64,000 nt of DNA from Bowmanella yangjiangensis. Its GTDB lineage: Bacteria; Pseudomonadota; Gammaproteobacteria; Enterobacterales; Alteromonadaceae. Below, piece by piece: positions 22,093-40,641 of this stretch. The stretch's first letter is position 1. The number at the start of each line of letters is the position of its first letter. A program made the position numbers and the translations under genes. The stretch lies in contig NZ_JAFKCS010000008.1 of NCBI RefSeq assembly GCF_017255015.1, positions 1 through 64,000 of the forward strand, read 5' to 3'. The notes under the pieces are model-generated. The model had not been told where the DNA came from. It worked only from the letters and a program-made list of their open reading frames with translations, and ran no database searches.

Positions 22093-24975
22093 TTATGGTG
22101 TTTCCACCTGCCGCTCGCTGACTTTATCCAGCAGGTACAAAATGGATTGATAGGGAATGCCGCTATGCTGACTCAAACCTATTTCACAAGTGCGGCTATT
22201 AGATACGCCCTGATGACAACCGCTCGGAATTTGCTGTTTCAAGCCTTTAAGTGCACTGGCATTGAGCTCTGGGGTAAAAAAGCCTTTATCCCCGGCAAAA
22301 CCACAACATTGAATATCTTTGGGGATCACCACGTCTTCGGCGCAGGCTCTGGCCAGCTCCACCAATTGCTGCTCAGCATGCAAGCGCTTGCTGGAACAGG
22401 TGACATGCAGCATCACAGGTTGCTGCTGTTTGCGGATGTGTAAGTTTGGCAGCACATACTGATGCAGGAACTGGGCGGTCTCCTGCACATTCAAACCGTC
22501 CTGACTAAACTGCAATGCGCAAGGCGAAGCATCAACGACTATGGGTAATTCCTGCTCTTTTGCCAGTTGTAACAGTGCCTCGGCACTTTGCTGACGCTTT
22601 TGCTTAGCGAGTGCTTGATGTCCTTTGCTGTCCCAAGGCATTCCGCAGCAAAGCTGTTGCAGATTATCCGGGATCAGCACCCTGTAGCCAGCTTTGGCCA
22701 GCACACTGGCCATTACCTCAGGTAAAGGTCGGCGATCCTCTGCGTGACTGTCAGCGTCAAACATACGATTGGCGCAGGTAGGAAAATACACTACCGCCCG
22801 GGCGTCAGGGTGTTGCGGGATATCGCTGCCTTTTGCTCCCCCCGGCCAAGCTGGATACCAGGTGGGTACCGCGCCTGCGGTCACTTTGTTCAGACCGCGG
22901 AATAAAGCCGCGGTGGCCGAATCGCCCAGCACATTATGGGTAACCTTGCTGGCGTTAAGTGCAAAACGCGCCACCACGCCCGCCGCAGCAAAATGCTCGG
23001 CTGCCATCCCCGCCAGCCATTTTCCTGTTGGCTGCTCGGCACGTAACGACTTAATAAAGTCGCCGGTGTTGATGCCAACCGGGCAGCGCATGGCGCACAA
23101 ACCGGTGGCCGCGCAGGTATCAACGGCCAGATACTGATAAGCCTCTTTCAGTTGGGCTTTTTCGACACCTGTTAATGCACTGTCACCATCCTGGATCTGC
23201 CGGTGCAAGGCAATTCGCTGACGTGGTGTCAGGCTCAATTCTCGAGATGGGCAGACCGCTTCACAAAAACCGCACTCGATACATTTATCCAGCTCAGTAT
23301 CCACCGACGGGATGGGCTTCAAGTCCTTCAAATGGGCGTTAACATCATGATTAATGATAACCCCCGGATTCAATACGCCAGATGGGTCGAACAAGGCCTT
23401 AATATCTTGCATCAATCGGTAAGCATCTTCGCCCCACTCTAACTTTACAAAGGGGGCCATATTGCGTCCGGTGCCATGTTCGGCTTTAAGTGAGCCACCA
23501 AACTCCACCGCAACCAGCTCACCTACCGCTTGCATAAACTCACCATAACGCTGCACTTCTGACGGCTGATTGAAGGATTGGGTGAAGACAAAATGCAGAT
23601 TTCCTTCCAGCGCATGACCGAAAATAATGGCTTCCTGATAGTCAAAACGCACCAACAGGGCTTGAAGCTTCTCAACCCCTTCTGCTAACTGCGTTACCGG
23701 AAAGGCTACATCCTCGATAATCACCGTAGTGCCAGCCGGGCGCACCGCACCCACGGCCGGGAAGGTTCCCTTACGAATGGCCCACAGCGCCTGGTTGCGG
23801 GCAGGCTCCTGACTGAATGGCACTTGCGCGAGCATGGATGAGTCAAATCCCGCCAAAATGCCTGACACCGCTTGCAAATGAGCGGTGAGCATAGCTTCAT
23901 CCTCACCAGCAACTTCAATCAACAGCGCCGCGGCGTTGTCTTTAAGCGCTACCATGCCAGCTGGCATGGCGGGTTTTTCAGCTACACTGCGTAGCGCTCT
24001 GGCATCCATCAGCTCCACCGCGCTAACCGGTGCCGATGCCATTAATTGCACGGCTTCACAGCAGGCGCGGATATCGGCGAAAACAAACAGGCCTGTGGCC
24101 CGAAACGCCTCATCAACCACTGTGTGATAGGTAATGTCAGCAATAAATCCCAGTGTCCCCTCAGAACCAATCATCAAGTGTTTGAGGATCTCTAGAGGTT
24201 GGTCAAAGTCCAGCAACGCATTAATGCCATAGCCCGTGGTATTTTTAAGTCGGTACTTGTGCCGGATCTTTTCACTCAGCACGGGATTGCTTTTTACTTT
24301 TTGCGCCAGTTCAGACAAACCATCAAGCAGCTGTGGGCGCTTAGCCACAAAGGCCTGCACGCTGGTGGAATCGGCAGTATCCAGGCGGCTACCATCGGCC
24401 AGCACCACATGAATATCAGCCACCGTGTGGTAACTGTTCTGCTTGACCCCACAACACATACCCGAGGCATTGTTGGCGGCAATCCCGCCAATTTTACAAC
24501 TATCGATAGAGGCAGGATCCGGCCCTATCTTACGCCCTAGCGGCTTCAGCAGTTGGTTGGCATGCGCACCAATCACCCCAGGTTGCAGCCAGATTTTCTT
24601 ACCCTCGTCCAACACTTTGGCTCCGCGCCAATGCTCAGACAGCAAAACCAATACCGAATCGGTTACCGCCTGGCCTGACAAGCTGGTGCCGGCGGCACGA
24701 AAGGTCAGAGCAACTTTGTGGGTATTGGCACAGGCAACCAAACGGGTCAGTTGCTCGAGCGTATCGATGTTCACCACCAGTTTGGGAATAAGCCGATAAA
24801 AACTGGCATCACCGGCATATGCCAGTCGTCGGGGCAAATCGGAATACATATTGGCCGCGGCCAAGAAGGTCTGTATTTCATCCACAAAACGTTGAAAGTC
24901 AGCCTTATTTACCGGGTCTTGCTGCATCATCTGTCCCATTTTGGTTTGCGAGTTGTGAAAATTATTCGTATTCAT
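22093..24975 (-). CDS. FAD/Fe-S D-lactate dehydrogenase (Dld-II-like)
   Basis: 960 residues. It should oxidise D-lactate (or a related D-2-hydroxy acid) to pyruvate and pass electrons to the quinone pool. The N-terminal half is an FAD-binding oxidase (FRAAGTSLSGQAVTDSVLV, IGGIAANNASGMCCG, GSEGTLGF) with the GlcD-type cap (VEFGGSLKAEHGTGRNMAPF). Two 4Fe-4S motifs follow (CIECGFCEAVCP and CAATGLCAMRCPVG), then two CCG domains (LCCGMPWDSKG and CCGFAGDKGF). Length and order match the Dld-II group of shewanellas and alteromonads. It is divergent from the MurR-like regulator only 48 bases away, and MurQ in the same cluster releases D-lactate, which fits. The exact start is uncertain; ATGs at 24939 and 24930 are alternatives. 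Confidence 0.9.
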   Translation of the reverse strand: MNTNNFHNSQTKMGQMMQQDPVNKADFQRFVDEIQTFLAAANMYSDLPRRLAYAGDASFYRLIPKLVVNIDTLEQLTRLVACANTHKVALTFRAAGTSLSGQAVTDSVLVLLSEHWRGAKVLDEGKKIWLQPGVIGAHANQLLKPLGRKIGPDPASIDSCKIGGIAANNASGMCCGVKQNSYHTVADIHVVLADGSRLDTADSTSVQAFVAKRPQLLDGLSELAQKVKSNPVLSEKIRHKYRLKNTTGYGINALLDFDQPLEILKHLMIGSEGTLGFIADITYHTVVDEAFRATGLFVFADIRACCEAVQLMASAPVSAVELMDARALRSVAEKPAMPAGMVALKDNAAALLIEVAGEDEAMLTAHLQAVSGILAGFDSSMLAQVPFSQEPARNQALWAIRKGTFPAVGAVRPAGTTVIIEDVAFPVTQLAEGVEKLQALLVRFDYQEAIIFGHALEGNLHFVFTQSFNQPSEVQRYGEFMQAVGELVAVEFGGSLKAEHGTGRNMAPFVKLEWGEDAYRLMQDIKALFDPSGVLNPGVIINHDVNAHLKDLKPIPSVDTELDKCIECGFCEAVCPSRELSLTPRQRIALHRQIQDGDSALTGVEKAQLKEAYQYLAVDTCAATGLCAMRCPVGINTGDFIKSLRAEQPTGKWLAGMAAEHFAAAGVVARFALNASKVTHNVLGDSATAALFRGLNKVTAGAVPTWYPAWPGGAKGSDIPQHPDARAVVYFPTCANRMFDADSHAEDRRPLPEVMASVLAKAGYRVLIPDNLQQLCCGMPWDSKGHQALAKQKRQQSAEALLQLAKEQELPIVVDASPCALQFSQDGLNVQETAQFLHQYVLPNLHIRKQQQPVMLHVTCSSKRLHAEQQLVELARACAEDVVIPKDIQCCGFAGDKGFFTPELNASALKGLKQQIPSGCHQGVSNSRTCEIGLSQHSGIPYQSILYLLDKVSERQVETP

Positions 24976-25023
24976 TTAATATGTGTCGAATAGCTTATTA
25001 TTGACCTTTCAGAGTGGCGCTTC

Positions 25024-25881
25024 ATGTCAACATTCATAAAAATCAAAGCCATGCGCGACAACCTCTCCACCAGTGAATTGGCCCTGGCGGACTATATCTT
25101 GTCCCATCCAGAGAGCATCCGCGACTTATCCTCGCAGAAGCTGGCTCAGCAGGCCGGCGTCAGTCAATCCAGTGTGGTGAAATTTACCCAAAAACTCGGC
25201 TATCGCGGCTATCCGGACTTTAAATTTGCCATTAACGACAGTTTGCGCTCCGCTCAGCAAAATGACACGCCCAGACTTCATGGACAGATATCCCTGGATG
25301 ACACCTTTTCTGCTGTCGCAGAAAAATTACTCTCCAGCAAAGTTGCCGTGCTGACCAATACCAAAAGTGTCAATGAGCAATCCACCTACGAGCAAGCTCA
25401 GACCATGCTGCAAAAAGCCAATCGCATACTCATATGCGGCGTGGGCGGTTCAGCGTTAGTCGGCCGGGATTTGTCGTTTAAACTGCAAAAACTCGGTATG
25501 TCAGCCTTCGCGGAAAGCGATAACCATGTGCAAATGGCCAACGTTGCCAACTATACCAATAAGGATCTGCTGTTTGTTATCAGTGAATCGGGGGAAACCC
25601 GTGAAGAAGTTGCCGTCACTGAACTAGCCAAAAAACATGGTGTAACAATTGTCAGCCTCACCGGTTATGGCAACAACAGCATATCCAAACTAGCCGACGT
25701 CAAACTCTACACTGTGTCTGACGAAAACTCGGCGCGTTTATCTTCTATTCTCGCGCGTACGGCGCAAGAGTTTGTGATAGACACCTTGTTTATCCTGCTC
25801 ACCCAGTCTTCCGCAAAGGGTCGGAAGCTACTCGAAGTTTCCAACCAGGCCATACGCGAGTTCCGCACCAGCGGCCGCTAA
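25024..25881 (+). CDS. murR: MurR/RpiR-family transcriptional regulator of the amino-sugar cluster
   Basis: 285 residues. Residues 1-77 are the RpiR helix-turn-helix domain (LATTERALADYIL-like start here as LSTSELALADYILSHPE, then QKLAQQAGVSQSSVVKFTQK). Residues about 105-255 are a SIS sugar-phosphate-binding domain (RILICGVGGSALVGRDLSFK, LLFVISESGETREEV). Such proteins usually repress sugar genes until a phosphosugar binds; MurNAc-6-P is the expected ligand because murQ lies next door, which is inference. The gene is divergent from the D-lactate dehydrogenase and convergent with the namZ-murQ operon. It is not HexR-like in sequence. Confidence 0.85.
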   Translation: MSTFIKIKAMRDNLSTSELALADYILSHPESIRDLSSQKLAQQAGVSQSSVVKFTQKLGYRGYPDFKFAINDSLRSAQQNDTPRLHGQISLDDTFSAVAEKLLSSKVAVLTNTKSVNEQSTYEQAQTMLQKANRILICGVGGSALVGRDLSFKLQKLGMSAFAESDNHVQMANVANYTNKDLLFVISESGETREEVAVTELAKKHGVTIVSLTGYGNNSISKLADVKLYTVSDENSARLSSILARTAQEFVIDTLFILLTQSSAKGRKLLEVSNQAIREFRTSGR

Positions 25882-25888
25882 AGGGTTC

Positions 25889-25915
25889 AACAGGTATCCA
25901 GCCTGGATACCTGTT
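25889..25915. terminator. Bidirectional terminator-like hairpin between murR and namZ
   Basis: Perfect 11-bp arms, 25889-25899 and 25905-25915, with a 5-base loop, between two convergent stop codons. It ends in TTT on the plus strand. Confidence 0.65.
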
Positions 25916-25932: not shown

Positions 25933-27111
25933 TCAGGGGTAGAGCAAATAGCCCTGACGCATTTTCATATACCGCTGCAAATCACTCTGCCACTGAGCGC
26001 GAATTTGCGCCTCGCTTAAGCCTTCGGCAAGGGCCAGGCGCAGTTTGTCAGTACCGGCCAGTTTGTCCATAAAGCTCGGACTGGTGAAAAAGGTCTCACC
26101 TGCCTTGGCAAATTTATGATGCCATTCAACCAGATAATTCAGGTTTAAGCCTTTGGCTTCAATACTACGTAAATCCATGCCCTGCACTGTGACATTTTCA
26201 AACTTGGGATGAGTAGACGCCCCCGGAATAGAACGAGGCGCAAAGCTGAATGGCTCGGCGGCACTCACAAACAAGCTGTCATGGCCAATCACTTGGAAGG
26301 GGAAATCTGTCCCTCTCCCTATGCTCACCGGCGTCGGTTCAAAAAAGCCCAGCGACGGATAGTGGCGGATTGACACATAGTTGGGCAGATTCGGACTGGG
26401 TCTGACAGGCAGCTCATAACGCATATCATGACGGTAACCCTGCATAGGGATAACGGTTAATGCCAGGGATTTATCCGTTTCCAGCCAACCTTCACCGACA
26501 ATCATATGGGCCAGTTCACCCACGGTCAGACCATGCACCAAGGGGATCTCATGCATTCCCACAAAAGAACGAAATGCCGGCTCAAGCATAGGACCATCAA
26601 CGTAATCACCGTTGGGGTTAGGTCTGTCTAACACCATAAAGGGCAGGCCTGCTTCAGCAGCCGCTTCCATCATGTAGTGCATGGAACTGATGTAGGTGTA
26701 GTAACGCACCCCAACATCTTGAATATCAAACAGAATGACATCCAAATCGGCTAAGGCTTCGGCTTCAGGTTTACGGGTTTTGCCATAAATGGAGTAAAGT
26801 GGAATACCGGTTTTTGCATCAATGGATGAGTCCACTTTGGCACCGGCATCATGGTCACCACGAAAGCCATGCTCTGGGGCAAAGATGCGCTGAACCTTTA
26901 CCCCTTTTTCCAGCAACAGATCCACCAGGTGCTGCTCACCAACAACAGAGGTTTGGTTAACAATCAAACCGACCCGCTTACCGGCCAGTTTGGGTAAAAA
27001 CAGTCCATCACGCTCAGCGCCCACCATAAAGTTATCGGTCGGCGCAGTGTTATGGCTGGAACAAGCCACCAAGCTCGTTGCCATCAACAAGGTAACCAGC
27101 CACTTAAACAT
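25933..27111 (-). CDS. namZ: Exo-beta-N-acetylmuramidase NamZ (DUF1343), lipoprotein
   Basis: 392 residues. The N-terminus [17 protein letters not shown] ends in a lipobox with Cys17, so it is predicted to be membrane-anchored and exported. All DUF1343 hallmarks are visible: VGLIVNQTSV, RIFAPEHGFRGD, IPLYSIYG, ILFDIQDVGVRYYTYIS, VLDRPNPNGD, PSPNLPN and GRGTDFPFQVIG. This family includes the Bacillus subtilis enzyme YbbC/NamZ, which takes MurNAc from the non-reducing end of peptidoglycan fragments. Length is normal for the family. Its ATG shares one base with the murQ stop (TGATG), so it is the last gene of the symporter-kinase-murQ-namZ operon. It would feed MurNAc to the importer encoded first in the operon. 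Confidence 0.93.
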   Translation of the reverse strand: MFKWLVTLLMATSLVACSSHNTAPTDNFMVGAERDGLFLPKLAGKRVGLIVNQTSVVGEQHLVDLLLEKGVKVQRIFAPEHGFRGDHDAGAKVDSSIDAKTGIPLYSIYGKTRKPEAEALADLDVILFDIQDVGVRYYTYISSMHYMMEAAAEAGLPFMVLDRPNPNGDYVDGPMLEPAFRSFVGMHEIPLVHGLTVGELAHMIVGEGWLETDKSLALTVIPMQGYRHDMRYELPVRPSPNLPNYVSIRHYPSLGFFEPTPVSIGRGTDFPFQVIGHDSLFVSAAEPFSFAPRSIPGASTHPKFENVTVQGMDLRSIEAKGLNLNYLVEWHHKFAKAGETFFTSPSFMDKLAGTDKLRLALAEGLSEAQIRAQWQSDLQRYMKMRQGYLLYP

Positions 27112-28064
27112 CAGTTCTGACCTCTTGCAGACTCAACGGCTTTACGCAAAAAGCCCTGTTGTTTGTCCAAAAGCGCCTGGCCTTCTTCACGCTCCAAACC
27201 GGTCAGAACGTGTAAAATGGCTAGTTTCGCCTTAAAGCCCGTTTTCGCCAGAGCGTCACGCGCAGTTTCATGATCACAGTCAGTGGCTTGCATCACGATA
27301 CGAATAGCGCGGGCATAAAGCTTCTGATTGCTGGCATTCACATCCACCATCAGATTTTCATAGCTCTTGCCGCTGCGGATCATGGCTGTGGTGGTCAGCA
27401 TATTCAGTACCATTTTCTGCGCCGAGCCCGATTTCATCCGAGTTGAGCCGGTTAATGCCTCGGGGCCCACAGTGGCACAAATACCAATATCGGCTTCCTG
27501 GGTGACTGCCGAATTGGGGTTACAGGTGACACTGATCGCCGGTGCGCCGAGTTGCTTGGCGTATTGCAAAGCTGAAATCACATAAGGTGTACGACCACTG
27601 GCGGCAATACCTACCAACACATCGTTGCCGCTCAGGCCAACTTTCTGTAAATCCCTGATGGCCAGTTCAGGGTCATCTTCCGCCCCTTCCACCGCTTTGT
27701 ACATAGCACCTTCACCACCAGCAATAATGCCAATGACCTGCTGATCCGAGACACTAAAAGTTGGCGGACATTCCACCGCATCTAACACCCCAAGACGACC
27801 ACTGGTGCCGGCGCCAATGTAAATCAGTCGCCCGCCCTTAGCGAAGGACTCGACAATCTTATCTACTGCCTGGGCCACCAAAGGAATGGTTTGTCGAACC
27901 GCCAGCGCCACTTTCTGATCTTCTTGATTGATCTTGTCGAGGATCTCTTCGGTGCTTAGCAAATCTATGTCATAGGTTTCAGGGTTGCGTCCTTCAGAAA
28001 CCATTTGATCCAATTGTTGTAGCAAAACGGATTCGTTTTTCAGCTTATCTTGGGTTGATGCCAT
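27111..28064 (-). CDS. murQ: N-acetylmuramic acid 6-phosphate etherase MurQ
   Basis: 317 residues. It cleaves the lactyl ether of MurNAc-6-P, giving GlcNAc-6-P and D-lactate in the cytoplasm. The SIS domain (about 50-220) includes [20 protein letters not shown] with the catalytic Glu98 (Glu83 of E. coli MurQ) and EGAEDD with Glu129 (Glu114 of E. coli). The [13 protein letters not shown] segment is a further MurQ signature. A UBA-like C-terminal helical region ([17 protein letters not shown]) completes the family layout. It directly follows the BadF-type kinase gene, which should make its substrate, and is coupled to namZ by a one-base overlap. Confidence 0.97.
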
Positions 28065-28964
28065 CTATTTGGCTTCCTCATTGTTCAAAGTAACGTCGTC
28101 AGATTTCCGCGCCAGCAAGCAGGCGCCATCCAAGGCAGTCCCACGCGCACGAATTAAATTCATGTTTTTATCTGCAGCTAAGGCCATGATGGTTGGCTCG
28201 GCAAGCCCGCCGGTCAGTACCAGCGGCAAATCCTGGTCATGCTGGCGACTGGCCGCAATCAATCGCTGCACTTCCTGTAAATGCGCGGCAAAAAGCTGTC
28301 CTGCTACCGCACATTGGTCTTTCAGGCTAAGTACCATGGGTACCAAAGCCGCGTAATGGGTTGGGGTAGCGGCAGCCAGCCATTGCAAAATAGTCGGCTT
28401 ATCCTGCCCCAGTTGAGACTTCAGCATTTTGCCCAGCTTGGATTCAGCATGACCACCGTGTAAATCAAGTTCCCATAGTAAGGAAGTTACCGCATTCACG
28501 CCCAAGCGAGCGCCACTGCCCTGATCGCCGACCAGCAGTCCCCAACCGCCAATTTGGCGCTCTCCGCCATGGTTATCCAGCACCATGGCCACCGATCCTG
28601 TTCCCAAGGCCACCACGACCACCGGCTCACCAAGGTTGGCGCCGTAGGCCGAGGTTCGCGCATCAGAACAGAGCGTTATATGCTTAAAATGCCCGGAAAA
28701 CCCCGCCATGGCATCGGCGCAAAAACGTGGATTCCCGGCTCCGGCCAGACCGGCCAGAGCAATTATATCCTGGGTGCGGCAACCAGCCTGCTCGGCCAGC
28801 TCTTCGGCCAGGGAGAGAATGCGAGCTACCGATTGGGGTACACCCAGGCTCAGCGATGAGGCTTCCCCACGCGCTTCCCATTGTTTTCCACTGGCAAGAT
28901 GCTCCAATCGTGCCAGAGTCTTACTACCACCGCCGTCTATACCTAAAATATACTGAGTCTGCAT
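28065..28964 (-). CDS. BadF/BadG-type amino-sugar kinase, probable MurNAc kinase (MurK-like)
   Basis: 299 residues. ATP-dependent sugar kinase of the actin-like ATPase fold: phosphate-1 loop LGIDGGGSKT at residues 7-16, VVALGTGSVA near 118-127, the GGWGLLVGDQGSGARLG segment, and the adenosine motif LVLTGGLAEP. The BadF/BadG branch includes glucosamine/GlcNAc kinases and MurK of Clostridium, which phosphorylates both MurNAc and GlcNAc. Here it lies between the SSS symporter and murQ in one operon, with one base or less between neighbours, so it most likely makes MurNAc-6-P for MurQ after import of free sugar. GlcNAc could be a second substrate. Confidence 0.88.
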   Translation of the reverse strand: MQTQYILGIDGGGSKTLARLEHLASGKQWEARGEASSLSLGVPQSVARILSLAEELAEQAGCRTQDIIALAGLAGAGNPRFCADAMAGFSGHFKHITLCSDARTSAYGANLGEPVVVVALGTGSVAMVLDNHGGERQIGGWGLLVGDQGSGARLGVNAVTSLLWELDLHGGHAESKLGKMLKSQLGQDKPTILQWLAAATPTHYAALVPMVLSLKDQCAVAGQLFAAHLQEVQRLIAASRQHDQDLPLVLTGGLAEPTIMALAADKNMNLIRARGTALDGACLLARKSDDVTLNNEEAK

Positions 28965-28965
28965 G

Positions 28966-30537
28966 TCAGCTTACCTGCGCTGGCGATTGCTGACTGCGGC
29001 CCGCCCAACAAACCGTAAAGGCAATAGCGGTACCGATGCACAACTGCCAGGTGAAACCAAGGTTAAACTGCCAGCTTTCAGGTAACAGCAGGCCTTGAAT
29101 ATAGGGTTGCATCGCCAGCGTAACCATAAAACCTGTTATCAAGGCTGCCAGTACCGAACGCGGGCTACCGCCTTTGGTAAACAGGGTGGTGAAGTAAACG
29201 CCCAGCAAGCCACTGTATGAGAAGACCATCACTGAGAGGGCAAAGGCGAGCAGCGGCATATCCGAATATTGTTGCCAGTAGAAACACAAAATAGCCATAG
29301 CCGACAGCGCCACCGCCGCGACCACCATGCCCATCTGGCCGGCCCAGACAAAGTGCGCTTCGCTATGCTCGCCGCGCTTTTCTTTCATGGGGCGATACAA
29401 ATCCTGAACCAATACGGATGACATGGCATTCAGACCGGAGTTCAAAGTAGATAATGCAGCGGCAATCACGCCGACCGTTACTAATCCTCTGACCCCCACC
29501 GGAATTTCATTCAACACGTAATACATAAAGATAGTGATCTGCTCACCTTCGAAGCTTTGCACTATGGGCTGTCCGGCATCTGTCATCATCAAGTCAGGGC
29601 GCTGATAGAACACATACAGCAGCAAACCAATAATAATAAACAGCGCCATCACCGGGATAACCATCACCACCGACCAAATCAGGGCAGATGCCCCTTGCTT
29701 GGCATCTTTACAACTTAGCATGCGCTGCGTCATGTCCTGATCCAGACCAAAGGCGGCGATGTTAAGCAGCACAAAGCCGGTAATGGCCGACCAAACGGTA
29801 AAGACTCCGGTAGGGCCAAAGTCCAAACGCCAGTCAAACAAGGTCAGCTTTGACATTTCACGGTCTGCTGGATTCGCCAGTGCATCCATGATGGTTGACC
29901 AATCGGCCGGGATGCTGACCGCCAGAAAATAAATAACGAATAGCGCAGCCCCTACATAAACGGCACACTGAATCACATCACTGACGATAACGGATTTCAG
30001 GCCCCCCACAAAGGAATAAGCCAGCCCCACCAGCGTCAAAATAACAATAGCGCTGATAACACTGCCAGCCTGGATATCACCAAACAGAATCATGGCGACG
30101 GCTATGGCAGCCATGTACAATCTGGCGCCACTGGCAAACACGCGACCGAACAGGTACATAATACCGGCCTGACGCTTGGCCGATGCGCCAAAGCGCTGTT
30201 CAAGCAGTTCGTATACTGTGGTGACCCGCAATTGATAAAAACGCGGGATTAAGAATATCGCCACACCAAAAGCGGCAATAAAGGCGCCGATATTGGTGGC
30301 AAGATAACTAAAATCGTTGCGATATCCCTGATCCGGCCCCCCCAGAAAAGTGGCGGCCGACTGGGATGTAGCCAGCACAGAGATGGCAACCATCCATATG
30401 GGCATTTTATTTCCGCCAAGAAAATAGTCGGCGGTAGTAGCCGCCTTCTGTCTGCTGTAGTACCAGCCGGTAGTGGCCATCACAACAAAATAGGCGGCAA
30501 ATACCAGCCAGTCCTGCCAGGCAAATTGGCTATGCAT
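28966..30537 (-). CDS. Sodium:solute symporter, probable MurNAc/amino-sugar importer
   Basis: 523 residues with about 14 hydrophobic segments, the size and pattern of SSS-family Na+ symporters. Recognisable pieces are TTADYFLGGNKMPIWMVAISV near residue 35, ATFLGGPDQGY, RFYQLRVTTVYELLEQRFG, and FGLDQDMTQRMLSC. It imports its solute with sodium across the inner membrane. As first gene of the operon ahead of the kinase, murQ and namZ, it most likely carries MurNAc (possibly GlcNAc too) and would replace the phosphotransferase importer MurP of other bacteria. The substrate is inferred from context only. The promoter and a 26-bp palindrome lie just upstream. Confidence 0.9.
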   Translation of the reverse strand: MHSQFAWQDWLVFAAYFVVMATTGWYYSRQKAATTADYFLGGNKMPIWMVAISVLATSQSAATFLGGPDQGYRNDFSYLATNIGAFIAAFGVAIFLIPRFYQLRVTTVYELLEQRFGASAKRQAGIMYLFGRVFASGARLYMAAIAVAMILFGDIQAGSVISAIVILTLVGLAYSFVGGLKSVIVSDVIQCAVYVGAALFVIYFLAVSIPADWSTIMDALANPADREMSKLTLFDWRLDFGPTGVFTVWSAITGFVLLNIAAFGLDQDMTQRMLSCKDAKQGASALIWSVVMVIPVMALFIIIGLLLYVFYQRPDLMMTDAGQPIVQSFEGEQITIFMYYVLNEIPVGVRGLVTVGVIAAALSTLNSGLNAMSSVLVQDLYRPMKEKRGEHSEAHFVWAGQMGMVVAAVALSAMAILCFYWQQYSDMPLLAFALSVMVFSYSGLLGVYFTTLFTKGGSPRSVLAALITGFMVTLAMQPYIQGLLLPESWQFNLGFTWQLCIGTAIAFTVCWAGRSQQSPAQVS

Positions 30538-30617: not shown

Positions 30618-30732
30618 TTCATTCTAATGAATAATTAATTCCGAAAGCCAGTAAAAAATTATTCTTTTCACTGGTCTTGCCGTAAAGTTTGCTGTCGGCA
30701 CCGGGAGTGATAAAGTTCCAACGGGAGTATCT

Positions 30733-32765: not shown

Positions 32766-33959
32766 ATGCTAAGTCGCTACGCTAACGGCATTCTGCAGGG
32801 CCTGCCGCCTAATCGTTTACTGGCTATTGATGCCTTTCGTGGTTTAACCATAGTGGCCATGATTCTGGTCAACAATCCCGGCAGTTGGAGTTACGTATAT
32901 GCGCCCCTGCTACATGCGCAGTGGCATGGCTGGACACCCACAGATCTGATCTTCCCGTTTTTTGTGTTTATTGTTGGCTTGTCAATCAAAATTGCCATTG
33001 ACCGCCAACTGGCCGCCGGCCATGCCCGCGCTCCTATCATCAAGCATGCTTTTATTCGCATGACTAAGTTGGTTTTACTGGGTTGGTTCCTCGCCTTGTT
33101 TTTCTACAATTTCCGCGACCCATCCTTCAGTTGGATAAACGATCGTTTGCTCTCCATGCGCATACCCGGCGTATTACAGCGGCTTGGTCTGGTGTATTTC
33201 TTCACCGTCCTGATAGTGCTGTATTGGCGCACCGCAGGACGCGCCATCTGGGCCCTGCTGCTGGCCTTTGGTTACTGGGCGATGCTGGCGTTTGTGCCAT
33301 ACAGTGACACAGCCGGAAACCAATATCAGGGGCTGTATGACTACGGCAACAATCTGGCGTCATGGCTGGATCAGTGGCTATTGGGTGCTGCTCATGTGTA
33401 CGACAAGAAAGCCGCACCTTTTGTCATGGATCCTGAAGGTATACTCAGTACCTTGCCTGCAATTGCAGGCTGCCTGACAGGCGTGTTAGCCGGGCAGTTT
33501 TTGATGAACGACAAAATCGCCTTACTAAAACGCATAAGCGGATTACTGGTTGTAGGTTTAGCTTCAGTGCTAGTTGCCGAAGTCTGGGATAGTCTGCTAC
33601 CTATCAACAAAGCCCTTTGGACTCCCAGTTTTGTCTTACTGTCTTCAGGTTTTGCCTGTTTAACCCTGGGCTTATGTTTGTGGCTTATCGATCACAAAGG
33701 AATAAAGGCATGGACCGCACCTTTTGTCGTATTCGGCGCAAATGCCATTGCGTTTTATATGTTTGCTGCCATCGTTGCCAGAGTGTTGCTGATGTTAAGC
33801 GTGGGTGACACCAGTCTTAAGGGGTGGCTATACACACAAGTATTTCAGCCCCTGTTTGGTAACTACAACGGTTCATTAGCCTTTGCGCTGTGTTTCCTGG
33901 CGCTGTCTTATACAGTAATGCATTGGATGTACAAGCGAGGCTGGTTCTGGAAAGTCTGA
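32766..33959 (+). CDS. nagX: NagX-type multi-membrane protein (DUF5009/COG4299, HGSNAT-like)
   Basis: 397 residues with about 10-11 membrane helices. The N-terminus LLAIDAFRGLTIVAMILVNN, and the segment HGWTPTDLIFPFFVFIVGLS, are hallmarks of the family that includes human heparan-alpha-glucosaminide N-acetyltransferase. In alteromonads and shewanellas this gene travels with GlcNAc/chitin genes and is called nagX; a role in amino-sugar transport or transmembrane acetylation has been proposed but not settled. Downstream of nagZ on the same strand, it fits the amino-sugar block: it could acetylate de-acetylated sugars or help import GlcNAc. A conserved His appears in LLHAQWHGW. Confidence 0.88.
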   Translation: MLSRYANGILQGLPPNRLLAIDAFRGLTIVAMILVNNPGSWSYVYAPLLHAQWHGWTPTDLIFPFFVFIVGLSIKIAIDRQLAAGHARAPIIKHAFIRMTKLVLLGWFLALFFYNFRDPSFSWINDRLLSMRIPGVLQRLGLVYFFTVLIVLYWRTAGRAIWALLLAFGYWAMLAFVPYSDTAGNQYQGLYDYGNNLASWLDQWLLGAAHVYDKKAAPFVMDPEGILSTLPAIAGCLTGVLAGQFLMNDKIALLKRISGLLVVGLASVLVAEVWDSLLPINKALWTPSFVLLSSGFACLTLGLCLWLIDHKGIKAWTAPFVVFGANAIAFYMFAAIVARVLLMLSVGDTSLKGWLYTQVFQPLFGNYNGSLAFALCFLALSYTVMHWMYKRGWFWKV

Positions 33960-33974: not shown

Positions 33975-34361
33975 ATGCAGCAAGACCATCAAAAAATTGC
34001 CCAGGCACTTAAACGTTTCCTATTCACCGTGCTGGCAATCTCAAGTGCGTCTCTATCACTAATGATTGCCTGCATGTGGCTGTTCGGTCAGGATCGCGAC
34101 CGCCGCTTCTCAGATAATCAGTTTATTGCCTCTGATGGACATTTTAATAACGCTTTGTATCAAGGACGTTGTGAAGAACTTATAGAGCCACTACAACAAT
34201 CATCTGCCATACAAAACGACGATAGCTTGCCACGGCAGTTGGATGATGAATTATTTATCAACCGCAACCAAAGCACTATCGCCTCCCAGTACTACTGGAA
34301 AAATGGTTTCAGTATTGAGGCGACGTCGTCGGGCATGGTTGCCCGACTTGAGATAAAGTAG
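33975..34361 (+). CDS. Small membrane-anchored protein of unknown function
   Basis: 128 residues, not recognised. Residues about 14-38 form a membrane helix (FLFTVLAISSASLSLMIACMWLFG); the rest is polar and probably periplasmic, with one Cys (QGRCEELIE). It starts 15 bases after nagX and appears cotranscribed with it. GAGGATGTG precedes the ATG, so it is likely translated. No motif suggests a role; it may be a lineage-specific accessory. About 150 gene-free bases follow before the chemoreceptor end. Confidence 0.65.
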   Translation: MQQDHQKIAQALKRFLFTVLAISSASLSLMIACMWLFGQDRDRRFSDNQFIASDGHFNNALYQGRCEELIEPLQQSSAIQNDDSLPRQLDDELFINRNQSTIASQYYWKNGFSIEATSSGMVARLEIK

Positions 34362-34515: not shown

Positions 34516-36096
34516 TTACTTTCCAATAGTTCCTACACTGAAACGCCGGATAATTTCGCGCACCGATGTAACGGTTTTCATCAATCTTTCACTGGCATTG
34601 AGTGAATTCTCGGCCGACTCGCGAGTTAACCTGGCACTGTCAGCAATTCCAACCACCTGCTGATTGATATGCTCAGCAACAGAACTTTGTTCTTCCACCG
34701 CTGCCGACATTTCATCTGTCAGTTCAGTGATCCTGCCAACAGCTTCGCTGATCCCGTCAAGTGCATCCCTGGTCTGATCAACGATTTCCACCCCTTTGGC
34801 TGCCGCGGCTTCTCCTTTACCTGAAACAGTCACAGCATTCTCAGCCCGTTTACTCAACACCGAGACAATACCATGAATTTTGTCTGTGGATTCCCGGGTT
34901 TTCATCGCCAGAGAGCGAACCTCGTCCGCCACAACACTAAATCCTCTGCCCTGTTCACCGGCCCTGGCCGCTTCAATGGCTGCATTCAGCGCCAACAAAT
35001 TGGTTTGCTCAGCAATTGTTGAAATAAGGCTGGCCGCTTGACCAATCTCACTGCTGGATTCGGCTAATTCACGCACAGTCTTGGCAATATCACTGACGGA
35101 ACCGCTAAGTTCATCTATTGCACGTTTTGCATCATTGGCCAGTTTGCCGCCGTCACGCACATTTTGTAGCGCTTGCCTGGCATTTTCTGCATTAGCCTGA
35201 ACATTGGCTGATACCTCTTGGATAGCGGTGGACATCTGAGTGATCGCCGAGGCAATTTGTTGGGTAGACTGATTCTGCGCATCACTCGATTTGGCTGCAG
35301 CATCTGACTCGCTATGCGTCTGATGCGCAATACCTTCAAGAACACCTGCGGCATCGGCAATTCTGGTTAAGGCTGTGCGGGTTCTGGCCAGTTCCGAGCC
35401 AAATGCCATTTTAGCCTGAGCTTGCAGCCCCACATCGTTGAAGTAGGTTTCTGCCACAAACGGATCTGAAAATGAATCTGGACTGATATCCAGCAGCGAC
35501 TGCCAATCTCGCCTGCCGGCATTCCTATTCCACCAAGCAGCAACGCAGGTCAATGCCAATACCACCAATCCTGCCTGCCAATCGGCCATCACCCAAACAA
35601 CTGCGCTGGCTATGATGCCGGGCAGAACACTCGGCATCATAGCCGCCCCGCGAGCCAGAATCTTGTCCCAGGCAGGGCGCGGTGGTTTCCCTTGCCTAAT
35701 CCGGTGATACATGGCTTCTGCCCGTGCCTTTTCACTGGACGTGGCAGAAATGCGTACTGATTCATATCCCACCAGTTGGTCGCCATCAAAAATGGGGGTA
35801 ACAAAAGCACTTACCCAGTAGTGATCACCATTTTTACGTCTGTTCTTGACCAATCCCATCCAGATCCGTCCCGCAGAAATAGTTGCCCACATGGCCTTAA
35901 ACACATCGGCAGGCATATCCGGATGCCGAACGATATTGTGTGGCTTGCCAATTAACTCTTCACGGGTGAAACCACTCACTTCGACAAAAGCATCATTGCA
36001 ATGCTGTATGATACCGCGGTGGTCAGTGCCAGAAATGAGGCGATACTCGGCAGGAATCGCGTAGTCTCTCTGGGTAACAGGCTGATTGTCCCTCAT
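34516..36096 (-). CDS. Aer-like PAS-containing methyl-accepting chemotaxis receptor
   Basis: 526 residues. Residues about 15-125 are a PAS domain ([56 protein letters not shown]), the FAD-binding type seen in the aerotaxis receptor Aer. Two short hydrophobic segments (about 150-190) anchor it without a periplasmic domain. The cytoplasmic part contains the MCP signalling hairpin with [20 protein letters not shown] and [19 protein letters not shown]. It should report redox or oxygen state to CheA/CheW. It is monocistronic. Its leader carries the terminator-like RNA structure described at 36207-36346. AGGAGATAGT lies just before the ATG. Confidence 0.93.
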
Positions 36097-36346: not shown

Positions 36347-36460
36347 GTTTATGAAATATTTTATTCCTAATTGTTTTTTTACCGGTACGCATGAAAACTC
36401 ATCAAAAGCCAGTGAGGTTGCTGTCAGAGGCAATGCTAGTCAATTGAAACAACATAACCT

Positions 36461-36618: not shown

Positions 36619-37419
36619 TTGTCTGCTCAACTCAAAGCCACGCTAAATCCCTATCAGCTGCGCCAGGAAATTCGTCAGGGCCTGCATCAGGGCAATACAT
36701 CTGGGCTGGCTGCCGGGTATGTACAATGCAACCTGGCGATTTTACCGGCCGATTATGCCAATGAGTTTCTGCGCTTTTGTCAGTTAAACCCCAAGCCATG
36801 CCCGCTGATAGGCATGGCAGACAAGCCTGGGGATTTTATGCTGCCGCAGGTTGGCCAGGATGTGGATATCCGTACCGATGTACCTGCCTATGAAATTTTT
36901 GAGCACGGGGAGCACAAAGCGCGGGTTCACGATCTTCTCGACTTTTGGCGCGATGACCTGGTGACATTTATGCTCGGCTGCTCTTTTTCCTTTGAAGAGC
37001 CCTTACTGGCTGACGGCCTGGAAATTCGCAACATTACTGAAAAAGTAAACGTGCCCATGTACCGCACCAATATTGCCTGCCAACCAGCCGGGCGCTTCGG
37101 AGGCAACATGGTGGTCAGTATGCGGCCGATGAAAGCAGCCGATGCCATCCGTGCTATCCAGATCTGTAGTCGCTTTCCTGCTGTACATGGTGCGCCTGTT
37201 CATTTGGGTGACCCGGCCCAAATCGGCATTGCGGATATCAACAAGCCGGATTTTGGCGATGCAGTCAGTATTAAAGAGGGTGAAATGCCGGTCTTCTGGG
37301 CATGCGGCGTGACACCACAAATGGCCATTCGCCATGCCAAACCGCCATTTTGCATTACTCATAGCCCTGGCTGCATGCTGGTTACAGACCTGCTTAACAG
37401 CCGACTATCTATCCTGTAG
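36619..37419 (+). CDS. DUF1445 putative hydro-lyase (YcsI-like), N-terminal half of a D-glutamate cyclase
   Basis: 266 residues from a TTG start at 36619, chosen because AGGAG (36608-36612) sits 6 bases before it and no in-frame ATG competes. The whole protein is a DUF1445 domain: [102 protein letters not shown]. In animals this domain forms the first half of the mitochondrial D-glutamate cyclase DGLUCY; in B. subtilis (YcsI) it lies next to the 5-oxoprolinase genes as here. It opens a five-gene operon. The second half of DGLUCY, DUF4392, is the last gene of the same operon. Confidence 0.9.
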
Positions 37420-37426
37420 GTGACGT

Positions 37427-38149
37427 ATGCTGCTGAATTGCGATCTAGGTGAAAGTTTCGGCAACTGGAAAATGGGTCTGGATGACCAGGTGATGCCCTT
37501 CATCGATCAGGCCAATATCGCCTGTGGTTTCCATGCTGGTGACCCGGATGTGATGCATCGCACCCTGCTGTTAGCGAAACAAAATCAAGTCAGCATAGGT
37601 GCACATCCCGCTTATCTGGATCTACAGGGTTTTGGGCGCCGTTCTATGCAACTCACCCGTCAGGAAATCATCAACCTGTTGCATTACCAAATTGGCGCAC
37701 TCAGTGCCATGGCCACAGTACATGGCATGCAACTGAGTTATGTAAAACCTCACGGCGCCTTGTACAACGACATGATGGCCAAGCCCGCAGTATTTGAAGC
37801 AGTAGTTGAGGCTATTGACAGCTTCCCGCACAAACTGAAGTTGATGATTCTTGCTACTGCAGAGTCCGATCAATATCAAAAGGCGGCTGGACAAGTACCG
37901 CTGTTGTTTGAGGCATTTGCTGACCGACGTTATCAGGACAACGGCCATCTCACCCCTCGCAGTCAGCCGGATGCTGTATTGGATACCGAGCAAACCCTGC
38001 AGCAAGTGAAATTGCTGGCAGCGGAAGGCACAGTGATCACCCAAAGCGGCCGTAAGCTGGCATTAAATCCTGATACGTTATGTGTGCATGGTGATAATCC
38101 CCATGCTCTGGCCATGGTCAGACAGATCCGGGATCTGTTGCCACGATGA
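37427..38149 (+). CDS. pxpA: 5-oxoprolinase subunit A (LamB/YcsF family)
   Basis: 240 residues. One of three subunits of the ATP-dependent prokaryotic enzyme that opens 5-oxoproline to glutamate. Family signatures: LLNCDLGESFGNWKMGLDD at the N-terminus, ANIACGFHAGDPDVM (about 31-45), VSIGAHPAYLDLQGFGRR, YVKPHGALYNDM and VCVHGDNPHALAMV-like LCVHGDNPHAL near the end. These are the metal-binding and active-site segments of the YcsF fold. GTAGGTG precedes the ATG. Its stop overlaps the pxpB start by 4 bases. Confidence 0.96.
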   Translation: MLLNCDLGESFGNWKMGLDDQVMPFIDQANIACGFHAGDPDVMHRTLLLAKQNQVSIGAHPAYLDLQGFGRRSMQLTRQEIINLLHYQIGALSAMATVHGMQLSYVKPHGALYNDMMAKPAVFEAVVEAIDSFPHKLKLMILATAESDQYQKAAGQVPLLFEAFADRRYQDNGHLTPRSQPDAVLDTEQTLQQVKLLAAEGTVITQSGRKLALNPDTLCVHGDNPHALAMVRQIRDLLPR

Positions 38150-38859
38150 GCCAGTATCCGATGATCCAGACAGCGGGCGAGAACTGCCTGATACTCTATG
38201 TGGCAGAGCAGTCCGGGCCCGACGTAGCAAACCAGATTGCAGCCTTACTGCCTGGCTTAAGAACGGTGTTTGGTCGTTACCTGGTGGACGTTACGCCCTC
38301 TTACAACTCCATATTGATCCAATATGACTGCCTGCAGATTGATCATTTTCAGGCCAGGGCCCTGCTTCAAAAAGTACTCAGCCTGCCACAGCAAAGCAGC
38401 AGTCTGGCCGGTAAGCTGGTTGAATTGCCGGTTTACTACAGTGAGCAAAGCGGCCCTGACTTATCAGCACTGGCACAGCGCGCTGGTTTGTCCGTTCAGG
38501 ACGTAATCGACATCCATCAAGGGCAGGAATATCGGGTCTATGCCATAGGCTTTGCACCAGGTTTTGCTTATCTGGGTGAAGTGGATGCACGTATCGCTGC
38601 ACCACGTTTAGCCACGCCCCGCAAGAAAGTTCCTAAAGGCGCGGTAGCCATAGCTGATCGTCAGACTGCGGTGTATCCGGCCATGTCGCCTGGCGGCTGG
38701 AATCTGGTAGGTTTATGCCCAACGCCCATGTTCAATCCGCTTAGCGAGCCCCATATGCCAGTGCAAGTGGGTGACAGAGTGCGCTTTGTGGCGATCAGTC
38801 AGGATGAGTTTGTTGGACTGGGTGGCGATCTTTCACAGCTGGCAGGAGGCATTAGCTGA
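38146..38859 (+). CDS. pxpB: 5-oxoprolinase subunit B (KipI family)
   Basis: 237 residues. Contains the allophanate-hydrolase subunit-1 domain: N-terminal half with LLPGLRTVFGRYLVDVTPSY, then the cyclophilin-like half with YAIGFAPGFAYLGEVD, PRLATPRKKVPKGAVAIAD, and YPAMSPGGWNLVG. With PxpA and PxpC it forms the 5-oxoprolinase complex; the related B. subtilis KipI was first known as an inhibitor of sporulation kinase KinA. It overlaps pxpA by 4 bases and shares one base with the pxpC start. A His in LVDVTP-adjacent position is not obvious, so no catalytic residue is assigned. Confidence 0.95.
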   Translation: MSQYPMIQTAGENCLILYVAEQSGPDVANQIAALLPGLRTVFGRYLVDVTPSYNSILIQYDCLQIDHFQARALLQKVLSLPQQSSSLAGKLVELPVYYSEQSGPDLSALAQRAGLSVQDVIDIHQGQEYRVYAIGFAPGFAYLGEVDARIAAPRLATPRKKVPKGAVAIADRQTAVYPAMSPGGWNLVGLCPTPMFNPLSEPHMPVQVGDRVRFVAISQDEFVGLGGDLSQLAGGIS

Positions 38860-39803
38860 TGTTTAGGGTACTGAAGCCGGGCATGATGAGCCTGCTCACC
38901 GACGCTGGTCGCTTTGGCCAGGCTGGCCTGGGTCTGACCCAGGGTGGACCGGTGGATCCTTTTGCTTTTGGTATGGCAAATATTCTGGCGGGTAATACTG
39001 CGCAATGCACGGCATTGGAAGTCACCATGGGTGGCTTAAAGCTTGAAGCGCGTCAGGATGCACTTATCTGCGTCACAGGCGCACCGCTTGAACTAACAGT
39101 CGATGAACAGCCGCAACCGCTATGGCAGAGCATCAAGATCAAAGCCGGTAGCCACATAGAACTTGGTATGCAAACAGCCGGACTGCGCACTTACCTGGCG
39201 GTTCATGGCGGCTTTGACATCCGCCCCGCCTTTGGCAGTAGCAGCACCGTTGTGCGTGAAGGCATTGGTGGATTGAAGGGCGGTAAACTGAATGCAGGTG
39301 ATGAATTGCCTATTGGCGAAGCGGTTGAACAGGCTGTGCGCAAAAAACTGCCAGAATCTGCTATTCCCCAATACCAGCACAACATCACAGTAAGTTTGAT
39401 TCCCGCTTACCAATATGCGGCGTTTTCTGCCACCAGCCGGGCGGTGTTTTTTAGCAGTACCTACCAGGTCAGTAACCAAGCCGACCGTATGGGCTATCGT
39501 CTGCAAGGGCCTAGTGTTGCCAGCAATACCACTAGCATGCTGTCAGAAGGCATTGCTTTGGGTGCTGTACAGGTTCCTGCTGACGGGCAACCCATAGTAT
39601 TACTCAATGACCGCCAAACCATCGGCGGCTATCCAAAACTGGGTTCTGTACTGTCCCTAGACTGCGCCAGATTGGGCCAGTGTCGCCCCGGAGCAAATAT
39701 CCAATTTGAACTTATCAGCCTGGAGCAGGCGCATAATCAACTTATGCTTCACCATGCCCGCCAACAACGCTTGCTGACACACCTGGAAGAACTTGATGAG
39801 TGA
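38859..39803 (+). CDS. pxpC: 5-oxoprolinase subunit C (KipA/AHS2 family)
   Basis: 314 residues. Biotin-dependent-carboxyltransferase-like AHS2 domain without a biotin-carboxylase partner: FRVLKPGMMSLLTDAGRFGQ, LGLTQGGPVDPFAFGMAN, TALEVTMGGLKLEA, TYLAVHGGFDIRPAFGSSST, SNQADRMGYRLQGP, and QTIGGYPKLGSVLSLDCARL are all family segments. It completes the PxpABC complex that converts 5-oxoproline plus ATP to glutamate. It shares one base with pxpB and overlaps the DUF4392 gene by 8 bases, so all five genes are tightly coupled. Confidence 0.95.
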   Translation: MFRVLKPGMMSLLTDAGRFGQAGLGLTQGGPVDPFAFGMANILAGNTAQCTALEVTMGGLKLEARQDALICVTGAPLELTVDEQPQPLWQSIKIKAGSHIELGMQTAGLRTYLAVHGGFDIRPAFGSSSTVVREGIGGLKGGKLNAGDELPIGEAVEQAVRKKLPESAIPQYQHNITVSLIPAYQYAAFSATSRAVFFSSTYQVSNQADRMGYRLQGPSVASNTTSMLSEGIALGAVQVPADGQPIVLLNDRQTIGGYPKLGSVLSLDCARLGQCRPGANIQFELISLEQAHNQLMLHHARQQRLLTHLEELDE

Positions 39804-40641
39804 CGCTCTACTTCACCTTAGCCGTCAGATAGAAGATCTGCTGGTTGCGCGCAATATCCGTGGAATGCAGAGCCTCCAGGCTGCATTGTCGCCAGGCTAC
39901 TTGTTGCGTGCCGCAACTTTGCTAAACGATAATCCGGGCACCGTATTAATAGGTACAGGTTTTCCGGTCACTGACACCTTTGAAACAGACGGCCCGGTTG
40001 GCGCTGTTGCACTGTACAACGCCCTGTTAACCCTCGGCTACAAGCCTGTACTGGTATGCGGCGAGCCGCTGTTTAGCGCTTTATCCAGCGACTATCAGTG
40101 CATTCGGATTCGAGACAATGAGCTCCCGGAAGCTCGCCGTGAGACCCGTCAGCTTCTGGAGCAATATGCCCCTAGTCTGGTGATATCCATTGAACGTCCG
40201 GGTCTTAGTGCAGACGGACGTTATTACAACATGCGCAGCGAAGATATCAGTGACCGCTGTGCCTGCTATGACTATTTTCTGATTGATTCCCAGTGCCCAA
40301 CTATCGCTATCGGGGACGGTGGCAACGAGATAGGTATGGGGAAAGTACTGGACGCGGTGAAATCACTCAACATAGTTCCGGCAGTGACCAGTTGCGATGA
40401 ACTGGTGGTGGCCGATGTATCAAACTGGGCTGCCTACGGTATTCTTGCCTTGTTGGGTAAACTTCGCGGTGTGGATTTACTGGAAGGCATACAGCCAGAG
40501 CAAATTCTCACTTATCTGTCGAAGCGTGGCAGTGTTGATGGGGTTACCAGAGAAAATACCTTAACCGAAGATAGTTTGTGCTTCAGCGCAGGTGTTGAAT
40601 TGATTGAACAGATCCGCGACGTCTGGCGGTCAGCCCCCTAA
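39796..40641 (+). CDS. DUF4392 protein, C-terminal half of a D-glutamate cyclase
   Basis: 281 residues from the ATG at 39796 (GGAAGA upstream; a TTG three bases earlier is the only nearby alternative). A single DUF4392 domain: VLIGTGFPVTDTFETDGPVG, YKPVLVCGEP, LVISIERPGLSADGRYYNMR, CPTIAIGDGGNEIGMGKVLD, and SNWAAYGILALLG. The ERPG and GIGDGGNEIGMGK-type segments are the most conserved in the mammalian D-glutamate cyclase, where this domain follows DUF1445 in one chain. Here the halves are separate genes at the two ends of the pxp operon. The enzyme would turn D-glutamate into 5-oxo-D-proline; the separate-subunit arrangement is inference. Confidence 0.9.
   Translation: MSDALLHLSRQIEDLLVARNIRGMQSLQAALSPGYLLRAATLLNDNPGTVLIGTGFPVTDTFETDGPVGAVALYNALLTLGYKPVLVCGEPLFSALSSDYQCIRIRDNELPEARRETRQLLEQYAPSLVISIERPGLSADGRYYNMRSEDISDRCACYDYFLIDSQCPTIAIGDGGNEIGMGKVLDAVKSLNIVPAVTSCDELVVADVSNWAAYGILALLGKLRGVDLLEGIQPEQILTYLSKRGSVDGVTRENTLTEDSLCFSAGVELIEQIRDVWRSAP

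Follow-up and report, generated by a model that had tools for sequence, protein, structure and literature searches.

The first 64,000 bp of contig C778 of Bowmanella yangjiangensis (NZ_JAFKCS010000008.1; the genome comprises 5.4 Mb in 922 contigs), hereafter called the window, contain at positions 22093-40641 a locus that is probably a peptidoglycan utilisation island with an adjoining operon for the disposal of D-glutamate (D-Glu). Domain and family searches found in this interval every gene that a first-pass annotation of the sequence had named. Each part of the locus has a precedent, and the combination appears to be new. As that annotation had supposed, no description of the full combination was found in the open-access literature, judged by titles and the openings of abstracts.

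The locus consists of two blocks (Table 1). In the glycan block, the genes for NamZ, MurQ, a BadF-type kinase and an SSS symporter form a single minus-strand operon with gaps of at most 1 base; the symporter, kinase and MurQ genes follow each other with gaps of 1 and 0 bases, as in a murTKQ-type operon. Two gene pairs are divergent: a probable D-lactate dehydrogenase (LDH) and a MurR-type regulator, and the symporter and a GH3 protein of the NagZ type. In the D-Glu block, genes that overlap or are 7 bases apart follow each other on the plus strand; they encode a D-glutamate cyclase domain protein (DUF1445, here DGC), PxpA, PxpB and PxpC, all three subunits being encoded together, and a GLUCM_C protein (DUF4392). 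Between the blocks lie an orphan gene and a PAS-MCP gene, neither of which is constant across the genus.

The two halves were compared in 118 genomes of the family, the window's genome included. DGC was found in 22, GLUCM_C in 22 (both in 21), NamZ in 50 and PxpA in 105 of them. NamZ was carried by 20 of the 22 DGC genomes (Fisher p 2.7e-7, relatedness ignored), and in 12 of these 20 (8 genera, window included) DGC and NamZ lay 2.3-22.7 kb apart, in varying gene orders. Co-occurrence of the two operons in relatives, as expected from the first-pass annotation, was thus borne out by gene neighbourhoods (<25 kb in 12 of 20). As a control, PxpA was at most 40 kb from NamZ in 12 of 20 DGC genomes vs. 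1 of 23 lacking DGC, a limit set after two distances of 33-37 kb were known; at 25 kb the counts were 10 of 20 and 1 of 23. An order-wide test on 295 genomes found DGC in 6, all from the window's own family, and therefore says nothing on linkage elsewhere; DGC is rare in the order.

Among loci fetched from relatives (given as L numbers), the gene order of the window is kept in L053, L054, L055, L057 and L058, three of these lacking NagX. NagX and DGC follow each other directly on one strand in L056 (gap 0), and in L061 DGC-PxpABC-GLUCM_C is divergent from MurR. L063 has NagZ-MurR-DGC-GLUCM_C-LDH, with NagZ-MurR-DGC on one strand, and no PxpABC; L064 has NagZ-DGC-PxpB-PxpC-GLUCM_C and L078 has NagZ-DGC-PxpA, NagZ and DGC being joined on one strand in both (gaps 1 and 29, respectively). 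The order changes and the company is kept, which argues for shared function rather than inheritance alone. The 30 NamZ-bearing stretches (window included) contained MurQ (27), SSS (25), NagZ (25), MurR (21), the kinase (19), LDH (17), DGC (11), PxpA (10), GLUCM_C (10) and NagX (10). A genome collection was also scanned for D-Glu loci; the best 80 of 585 were kept, and glycan genes were sought within up to 10 kb. Four of the 80 had glycan genes, one from Lacimicrobium (L093) and three from Pseudoalteromonas. The latter three (L123, L129 and L136) carry NagZ-DGC-PxpA-GLUCM_C and a D-amino-acid transaminase (DAAT) gene beside LDH; PxpB and PxpC were not found within these stretches.

A palindrome, GGAAT-N5-ATTCC, recurs in the loci. 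With one mismatch allowed, 40 fetched loci and the window contained 16 intergenic sites in 63,169 bp vs. 1.75 in single-base shuffles, and 12 sites in 772,407 bp inside open reading frames (ORFs). Intergenic sites occurred in 11 of the 41 stretches, all 11 with NamZ, and in none of the 11 fetched loci without NamZ. They were placed at SSS/NagZ in the window, L053, L054, L055, L057, L058 and L061; before DGC in the window and L058 (same sequence) and between DGC and MurR in L061; between LDH and MurR and before NagZ in L087; between MurR and an M14 peptidase gene and before SSS in L088; before NagZ in L074; and beside MurR in L064. In L063 a site lies just within the SSS ORF. The motif had been derived from promoters that included SSS/NagZ of the seven stretches listed first and DGC/MurR of L061, so that the sites in those promoters are not independent; the SSS/NagZ region of L064 was also viewed at that stage, its site lying elsewhere. 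The M14-type peptidase gene of L088 (L088:11613-12965), which is transcribed away from MurR on the other side of the palindrome, encodes a candidate muropeptide amidase.

A further scan, without shuffles, covered 33 of the best 80 loci (L093 being from the same genome as L057) and L173, a locus of the window's own genome described below. An exact palindrome was found before PxpABC in L106, and sites lay between LDH and NagZ, ahead of DGC, in the Pseudoalteromonas loci L123 and L129, with an additional site before NagX in L123. Both sites in L136 lie in ORFs as called (the start of LDH; NagZ). One-mismatch sites fell within a 105-aa ORF in L120, within an ORF in L104 and within a receptor gene in L173; those in L096, L100, L101, L107 and L121 were not placed. 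The independent sites are those of L074, L087, L088, L106, L123 and L129. Together the sites suggest co-regulation of both halves in relatives, with MurR as the presumed binder of the palindrome. A stricter form, DGAATWWWWWATTCC, had a single match in the genome, at SSS/NagZ; the reversed-pattern control also gave 1 and 1.

Gene labels were judged against Pfam domains, curated NCBIfam cut-offs and PDB matches. The families named by the first-pass annotation were confirmed; LDH, the kinase, NagX, MurR, NagZ, SSS and the PxpC equivalog fell below NCBIfam cut-offs, and the substrates of LDH, the kinase, SSS and NagX are therefore read from context. MurQ passed its equivalog cut-off and is the sole MurQ over that cut-off in the genome; both domains of NamZ (PF07075 and PF20732) scored above theirs. 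Judged by eye, NamZ has a clean lipobox (LVAC) and the N-terminus of the GH3 protein is signal-like and ends in MTSC. The latter scored 190.8 vs. 207 for the NagZ equivalog (PRK05337) and would work like NagZ. The regulator scored 253.4 bits vs. 355 for PRK11557. LDH has FAD and Fe-S domains within one chain, as do D-lactate dehydrogenases of the Dld-II type. Its best NCBIfam score was 195.9 vs. 567.9 for glcD (YdiJ was also below), and enzymes for glycolate, D-lactate and D-2-hydroxyglutarate are all among its PDB matches; D-lactate is proposed because MurQ is encoded nearby, the sequence itself not fixing the substrate. The PDB entries closest to the kinase (96.7 vs. 370 for NagK) are a probable N-acetylglucosamine (GlcNAc) kinase and a kinase of N-acetylmuramic acid (MurNAc) and GlcNAc. 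In three genera (L061, L063 and L064) a kinase domain with 38-46% identity to that of the window is fused N-terminally to MurQ in proteins of 615-626 aa, and the kinase therefore likely feeds MurQ.

In the D-Glu block, DGC scored 415 bits vs. a cut-off of 324 for the NCBIfam 'putative hydro-lyase', and PxpC scored 245 vs. 500 for the equivalog NF045499 and passed the domain model TIGR00724. TON_0340, a crystallised relative of GLUCM_C, has been described as a protein with a metal cavity and a parallel sheet; six of its acids bind metal, and its phosphatase activity is low and depends on Mn (PMC5132392). The six acids listed in that report were placed by counting along the alignment to TON_0340; the DUF4392 residues E64, D66, E134, D175, E179 and D260 were invariant in 13 of 13 aligned same-family rows. 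The idea, suggested for the mouse protein (PMC5339696), that GLUCM_C is a relative of Asp/Glu racemases was considered; the fold and activity described for TON_0340 neither show nor exclude an epimerase.

A PxpC tree was built from the 16 PxpC found at fetched in-family DGC loci, all of which were used (6 of the 22 DGC genomes being unrepresented), genome G014, 20 of the 83 DGC-lacking PxpA genomes (17 chosen for nearby DAAT) and 19 of the 80 scan loci, chosen for PxpABC. DGC-linked PxpC of several orders formed one group (33 rows, support 82/73), from which the PxpC sampled from DGC-lacking members of the family were separate; three of the 19 (two Azospirillum, one Dechloromonas) lay outside the group. 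In a quick PxpA tree three DGC-lacking rows fell inside the wider group. With this modest support, the window's PxpABC appears to be a member of a lineage associated with DGC, and the PxpC grouping suggests joint evolution of DGC and PxpABC. G014 (L065), of the window's genus, has PxpABC beside NagZ in a wall island and lacks DGC and GLUCM_C; since its PxpC lies inside the DGC group, DGC was apparently lost there.

Table 1. Features of the window, with kinase-MurQ fusions of relatives
Feature	Position	Strand	Support
FAD/Fe-S D-2-hydroxyacid dehydrogenase, probable D-lactate dehydrogenase (LDH)	22093..24975	-	FAD_binding_4, FAD-oxidase_C, CCG, Fer4
MurR/RpiR-type regulator	25024..25881	+	HTH_6 + SIS
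NamZ exo-beta-N-acetylmuramidase, lipoprotein by N-terminus	25933..27111	-	PF07075 E 7e-83, PF20732; PDB 4jja E 6.5e-105
MurQ, MurNAc-6-phosphate etherase	27111..28064	-	TIGR00274 419.9 bits, cut-off 302
BadF-type sugar kinase, probable MurNAc kinase (MurK-like)	28065..28964	-	PF01869; PDB 1zc6 E 2e-33, 8zo3 E 5e-15
SSS symporter, probable MurNAc/GlcNAc importer (MurT-like)	28966..30537	-	PF00474; TIGR00813 176.1, cut-off 184
Candidate MurR operator TGAATAATTAATTCC, SSS/NagZ divergent promoter	30628..30642	.	motif scan
GH3 beta-N-acetylglucosaminidase (NagZ-type), exported/lipoprotein-like, 628 aa	30733..32619	+	PF00933 E 3e-86
NagX-like transmembrane acetyltransferase	32766..33959	+	NF046061 179.2 bits, cut-off 480; no Pfam match
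Orphan gene, 128 aa, no known family	33975-34361	+	
PAS-MCP gene	34516-36096	-	
Weak candidate operator GAAATATTTTATTCC upstream of D-Glu operon	36353..36367	.	one mismatch
D-glutamate cyclase domain protein (DUF1445, DGC)	36619..37419	+	PF07286 E 1e-68
PxpA	37427..38149	+	NF003816 (subfamily) 349.1 bits, cut-off 213
PxpB	38146..38859	+	TIGR00370 (equivalog) 147.6 bits, cut-off 145.55
PxpC	38859..39803	+	PF02626 E 2e-91; TIGR00724 285.3 vs cut-off 230.2
GLUCM_C protein (DUF4392), metal-site protein	39793..40641	+	PF14336 E 1e-65; PDB TON_0340 E 2e-31
LysR regulator 3' of D-Glu operon, possible local regulator	40803..41708	+	PF00126, PF03466
BadF kinase-MurQ fusions	L061:11790-13637, L063:5641-7494, L064:9611-11491		

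A second locus of the same genome (L173, contig C889) encodes an NhaC-type transporter, a VanX-type M15 peptidase, an NlpC/P60 protein, a DUF819 protein and an L-Ala-D/L-Glu dipeptide epimerase (262.8 bits, NCBIfam cut-off 500). The epimerase matches PDB 1jpm with E 3.5e-102, which we take to be the B. subtilis protein. The first-pass claim that most of a muropeptide is used at one locus was too strong, since dipeptide and D-Ala-D-Ala handling are encoded elsewhere. The 27 genomes (of 118) in which a dipeptide epimerase was found all carry NamZ (p 3.4e-13), and in 11 of them the two genes are at most 30 kb apart; its constant association with NamZ marks NamZ genomes as likely wall users. The proposal that DGC substitutes for this epimerase was rejected, because the two go together: 17 of the 22 DGC genomes have the epimerase, compared with 27 of all 118. 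A gene for a PEP-CTERM-box response regulator (L173:7608-8963; 711.7 bits, over the cut-off) adjoins the peptide-use locus.

We propose the following scheme. The sequence itself gives the family memberships, linkage, the fusion and the motif; substrates, export, regulation and each D-Glu step are inferred. The lipoprotein-like GH3/NagZ and NamZ would act outside the cytoplasm and remove GlcNAc and MurNAc one at a time from the ends of glycans. The sugars may be imported by the SSS symporter, after which the BadF kinase would convert MurNAc to MurNAc-6-phosphate, MurQ would split this into GlcNAc-6-phosphate and D-lactate, and the FAD/Fe-S dehydrogenase would oxidise D-lactate to pyruvate. MurNAc-6-phosphate would be sensed by MurR, releasing the GGAAT-N5-ATTCC operator. 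Stem peptides would be processed by the locus on contig C889. D-Glu would come from these peptides, or from D-Ala via a DAAT encoded elsewhere, and may be cyclised by DGC and GLUCM_C to 5-oxoproline, which PxpABC would open with ATP to glutamate.

A number of findings weigh against this reading, and several of them favour alternatives. Many of the gene names miss curated cut-offs. Two DGC genomes lack NamZ and 30 of the 50 NamZ genomes lack DGC; in the other 8 of the 20 genomes with both, the two genes lie 91 and 96 kb apart (two genomes) or on different contigs (six). No intergenic palindrome was found in 19 of the 30 NamZ loci, L056 among them, and the window's own site before DGC falls short of significance when taken by itself (4 matches in the window vs. 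2.09 expected), for which reason it was rejected as proof of co-regulation. The dipeptide epimerase accompanies DGC in the 17 genomes mentioned, although little free D-Glu would be expected alongside it.

In addition, the route from D-Glu to L-Glu has a stereochemical gap. In the mouse D-glutamate cyclase both domains are fused; this protein is reported to convert D-Glu to 5-oxo-D-proline and to have no glutamate racemase activity, and so offers no inversion step (PMC5339696), and PxpABC is known, from C. glutamicum, for the L form of 5-oxoproline (PMC13274462). An inversion of 5-oxo-D-proline is putative, and the first-pass statement that PxpABC opens 5-oxoproline skips this step. It is possible, if somewhat unlikely, that PxpABC opens 5-oxo-D-proline to D-Glu, that DAAT moves the amino group on, and that DGC and GLUCM_C use another substrate; this alternative concerns the D-Glu steps alone and is compatible with an island. 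The studied GLUCM_C member is called a phosphatase (PMC5132392), and the NCBIfam name of DGC is the hydro-lyase given above. DAAT-like genes, found with a query that itself misses the NCBIfam DAAT cut-offs, occur in 63 of the 118 genomes and accompany DGC in 21 of 22; that of the window's genome lies on a different contig. PxpA and DAAT lie at most 6 kb apart in 34 of the 59 genomes with both, of which 23 lack DGC and 22 of these also GLUCM_C (the exception is G110). Among 20 fetched stretches, of which 17 had been picked for nearby DAAT, PxpABC is followed by DAAT in 17 (L175-L191, e.g. L177:2744-7111), with alanine racemase in 9 and no DGC. Such operons suggest that PxpABC may work in D-amino-acid metabolism generally. 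The grouping of DGC-linked PxpC apart from the sampled DGC-lacking PxpC of the family speaks against this alternative, with support of only 82/73. In one of the stretches (L178:3664-5484) a 606-aa PxpC match was found and no separate PxpB was called; its length would allow a PxpB-PxpC fusion.

Less probably still, the proximity may be fortuitous and the two modules independent, one operon being devoted to MurNAc and the other, of general use, to D-amino acids and 5-oxoproline from whatever source supplies D-Ala or D-Glu. The blocks of the window are distinct operons; the opposite-strand MCP gene separates them, and MurR adjoins the glycan block as LysR adjoins the D-Glu block. In 76 of the best 80 scan loci no NamZ, MurQ, SSS or NagZ was found within up to 10 kb, so that D-Glu genes also occur alone. 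DGC-PxpABC-GLUCM_C with DAAT, often followed by alanine racemase, recurs among these 80 in Oceanospirillaceae, Halieaceae and others, no glycan genes standing with it in loci of the two families named, and many beta- and alphaproteobacterial loci have DGC alone by the probes used. The 23 genomes with neighbouring PxpA and DAAT and no DGC point the same way. Independence fits poorly, however, with distances below 25 kb in 12 of 20 genomes of 8 genera, with one-strand joins of the two halves in four family and three Pseudoalteromonas loci, and with the palindromes before DGC or PxpABC in L061 and L106 and between LDH and NagZ-DGC in L123 and L129.

A system for recycling of the cell's own wall, not food, is improbable: AnmK is present, MurQ is single, and recycling, too, employs NagZ, MurQ and a sugar kinase, but NagZ and NamZ look exported, another GH3 (353-aa frame) is encoded elsewhere in the genome, the symporter, lactate oxidation and D-Glu breakdown fit food use, and NamZ is found in only 50 of the 118 genomes. 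With AnmK and a sole MurQ, recycling probably also runs through MurQ, and the first-pass wording 'rather than for simple recycling' was not borne out. The glycan, lactyl and D-Glu blocks do recur together in relatives, in support of the first-pass reading, and its view that muropeptides serve as food agrees with the exported-looking NagZ and NamZ, the separate GH3 frame and the peptide locus on contig C889. We read the island as serving food first, a function probably shared with recycling.

A stronger form of the island reading, which we regard as doubtful, would place glycan, lactyl and D-amino-acid use under one MurR-type repressor. DGC would convert D-Glu to 5-oxoproline, GLUCM_C would be a metal-dependent 5-oxoproline epimerase, a dedicated PxpABC lineage would use ATP to open the product to L-Glu, and D-Ala nitrogen would enter via DAAT. 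The product of the mouse two-domain protein and its reported lack of racemase activity on glutamate count against such an inversion step in GLUCM_C. If this form is true, the island could supply the enzymes for the reported growth of Pseudoalteromonas on peptidoglycan, D-Ala and D-Glu, and the DUF4392 family would gain an epimerase role.

Among known systems, one operon of Tannerella encodes MurQ, an SSS-type MurT and a PF01869 kinase that is described as stringent for MurNAc (PMC5790795, PMC10465942). The window resembles T. forsythia murTKQ in its SSS transporter (matched by family alone), BadF/PF01869 kinase and MurQ operon and in NamZ, of which NamZ1 and NamZ2 are known in T. forsythia. 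Unlike that MurNAc auxotroph, it adds an RpiR-type regulator, the FAD/Fe-S dehydrogenase and the D-Glu operon. B. subtilis has a MurNAc cluster of nagZ, namZ, amiE and murQRP and a murein-peptide operon, ykfABC. The logic of NagZ, NamZ, MurQ and MurR, and an epimerase and NlpC/P60 at a second locus, are common to both; in contrast to the phosphotransferase system importer of B. subtilis, the window uses SSS with an ATP kinase, and it adds the D-lactate and D-Glu parts. We take ycsI to be the DUF1445 gene of B. subtilis, in which control searches gave a PF07286 match and, unlike the window, no GLUCM_C match. In an operon of that species, pxpABC stands with ycsI and the Mn importer gene ycsG (PMC10448178); the pxpABC operon of the window adjoins cell-wall sugar genes.

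DUF1445 and DUF4392 are both present in the mammalian D-glutamate cyclase (9030617O03Rik / C14orf159), which is one fused mitochondrial protein; in the window they are two separate proteins beside PxpABC. Pseudoalteromonas sp. CF6-2 is reported to use peptidoglycan as sole carbon and nitrogen source and D-Ala or D-Glu as sole nitrogen source (PMC6962226). The work on this marine bacterium centres on pseudoalterin, a secreted M23 protease of predation, and the part of the report available to us describes no D-Glu route (PMC6962226).

The island provides a testable gene set and would tie DUF1445 and DUF4392, joined in the mammalian protein, to bacterial D-Glu disposal; their reactions would be accessible in bacteria by deletion and assay. 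DGC, GLUCM_C, NamZ and the dipeptide epimerase together are suggested as a genome marker of wall-eating bacteria.

Some minor observations were made in and around the locus. The orphan gene after NagX is kept in L054 (64% identity) and was unlabelled in the other fetched loci, and the LysR gene has a 69% identical counterpart in the same position in L058. Upstream of the locus, 18800-21508 (+) encodes a 902-aa protein in which an OmpR-type DNA-binding domain, a protein kinase and TPR repeats are fused. In 44211-57297 (-), part of the run scanned, a PL8 polysaccharide lyase gene abuts an apparent cluster for surface-polysaccharide synthesis with two UDP-sugar dehydrogenases, GT2, Wzy_C and a WecG-type transferase.

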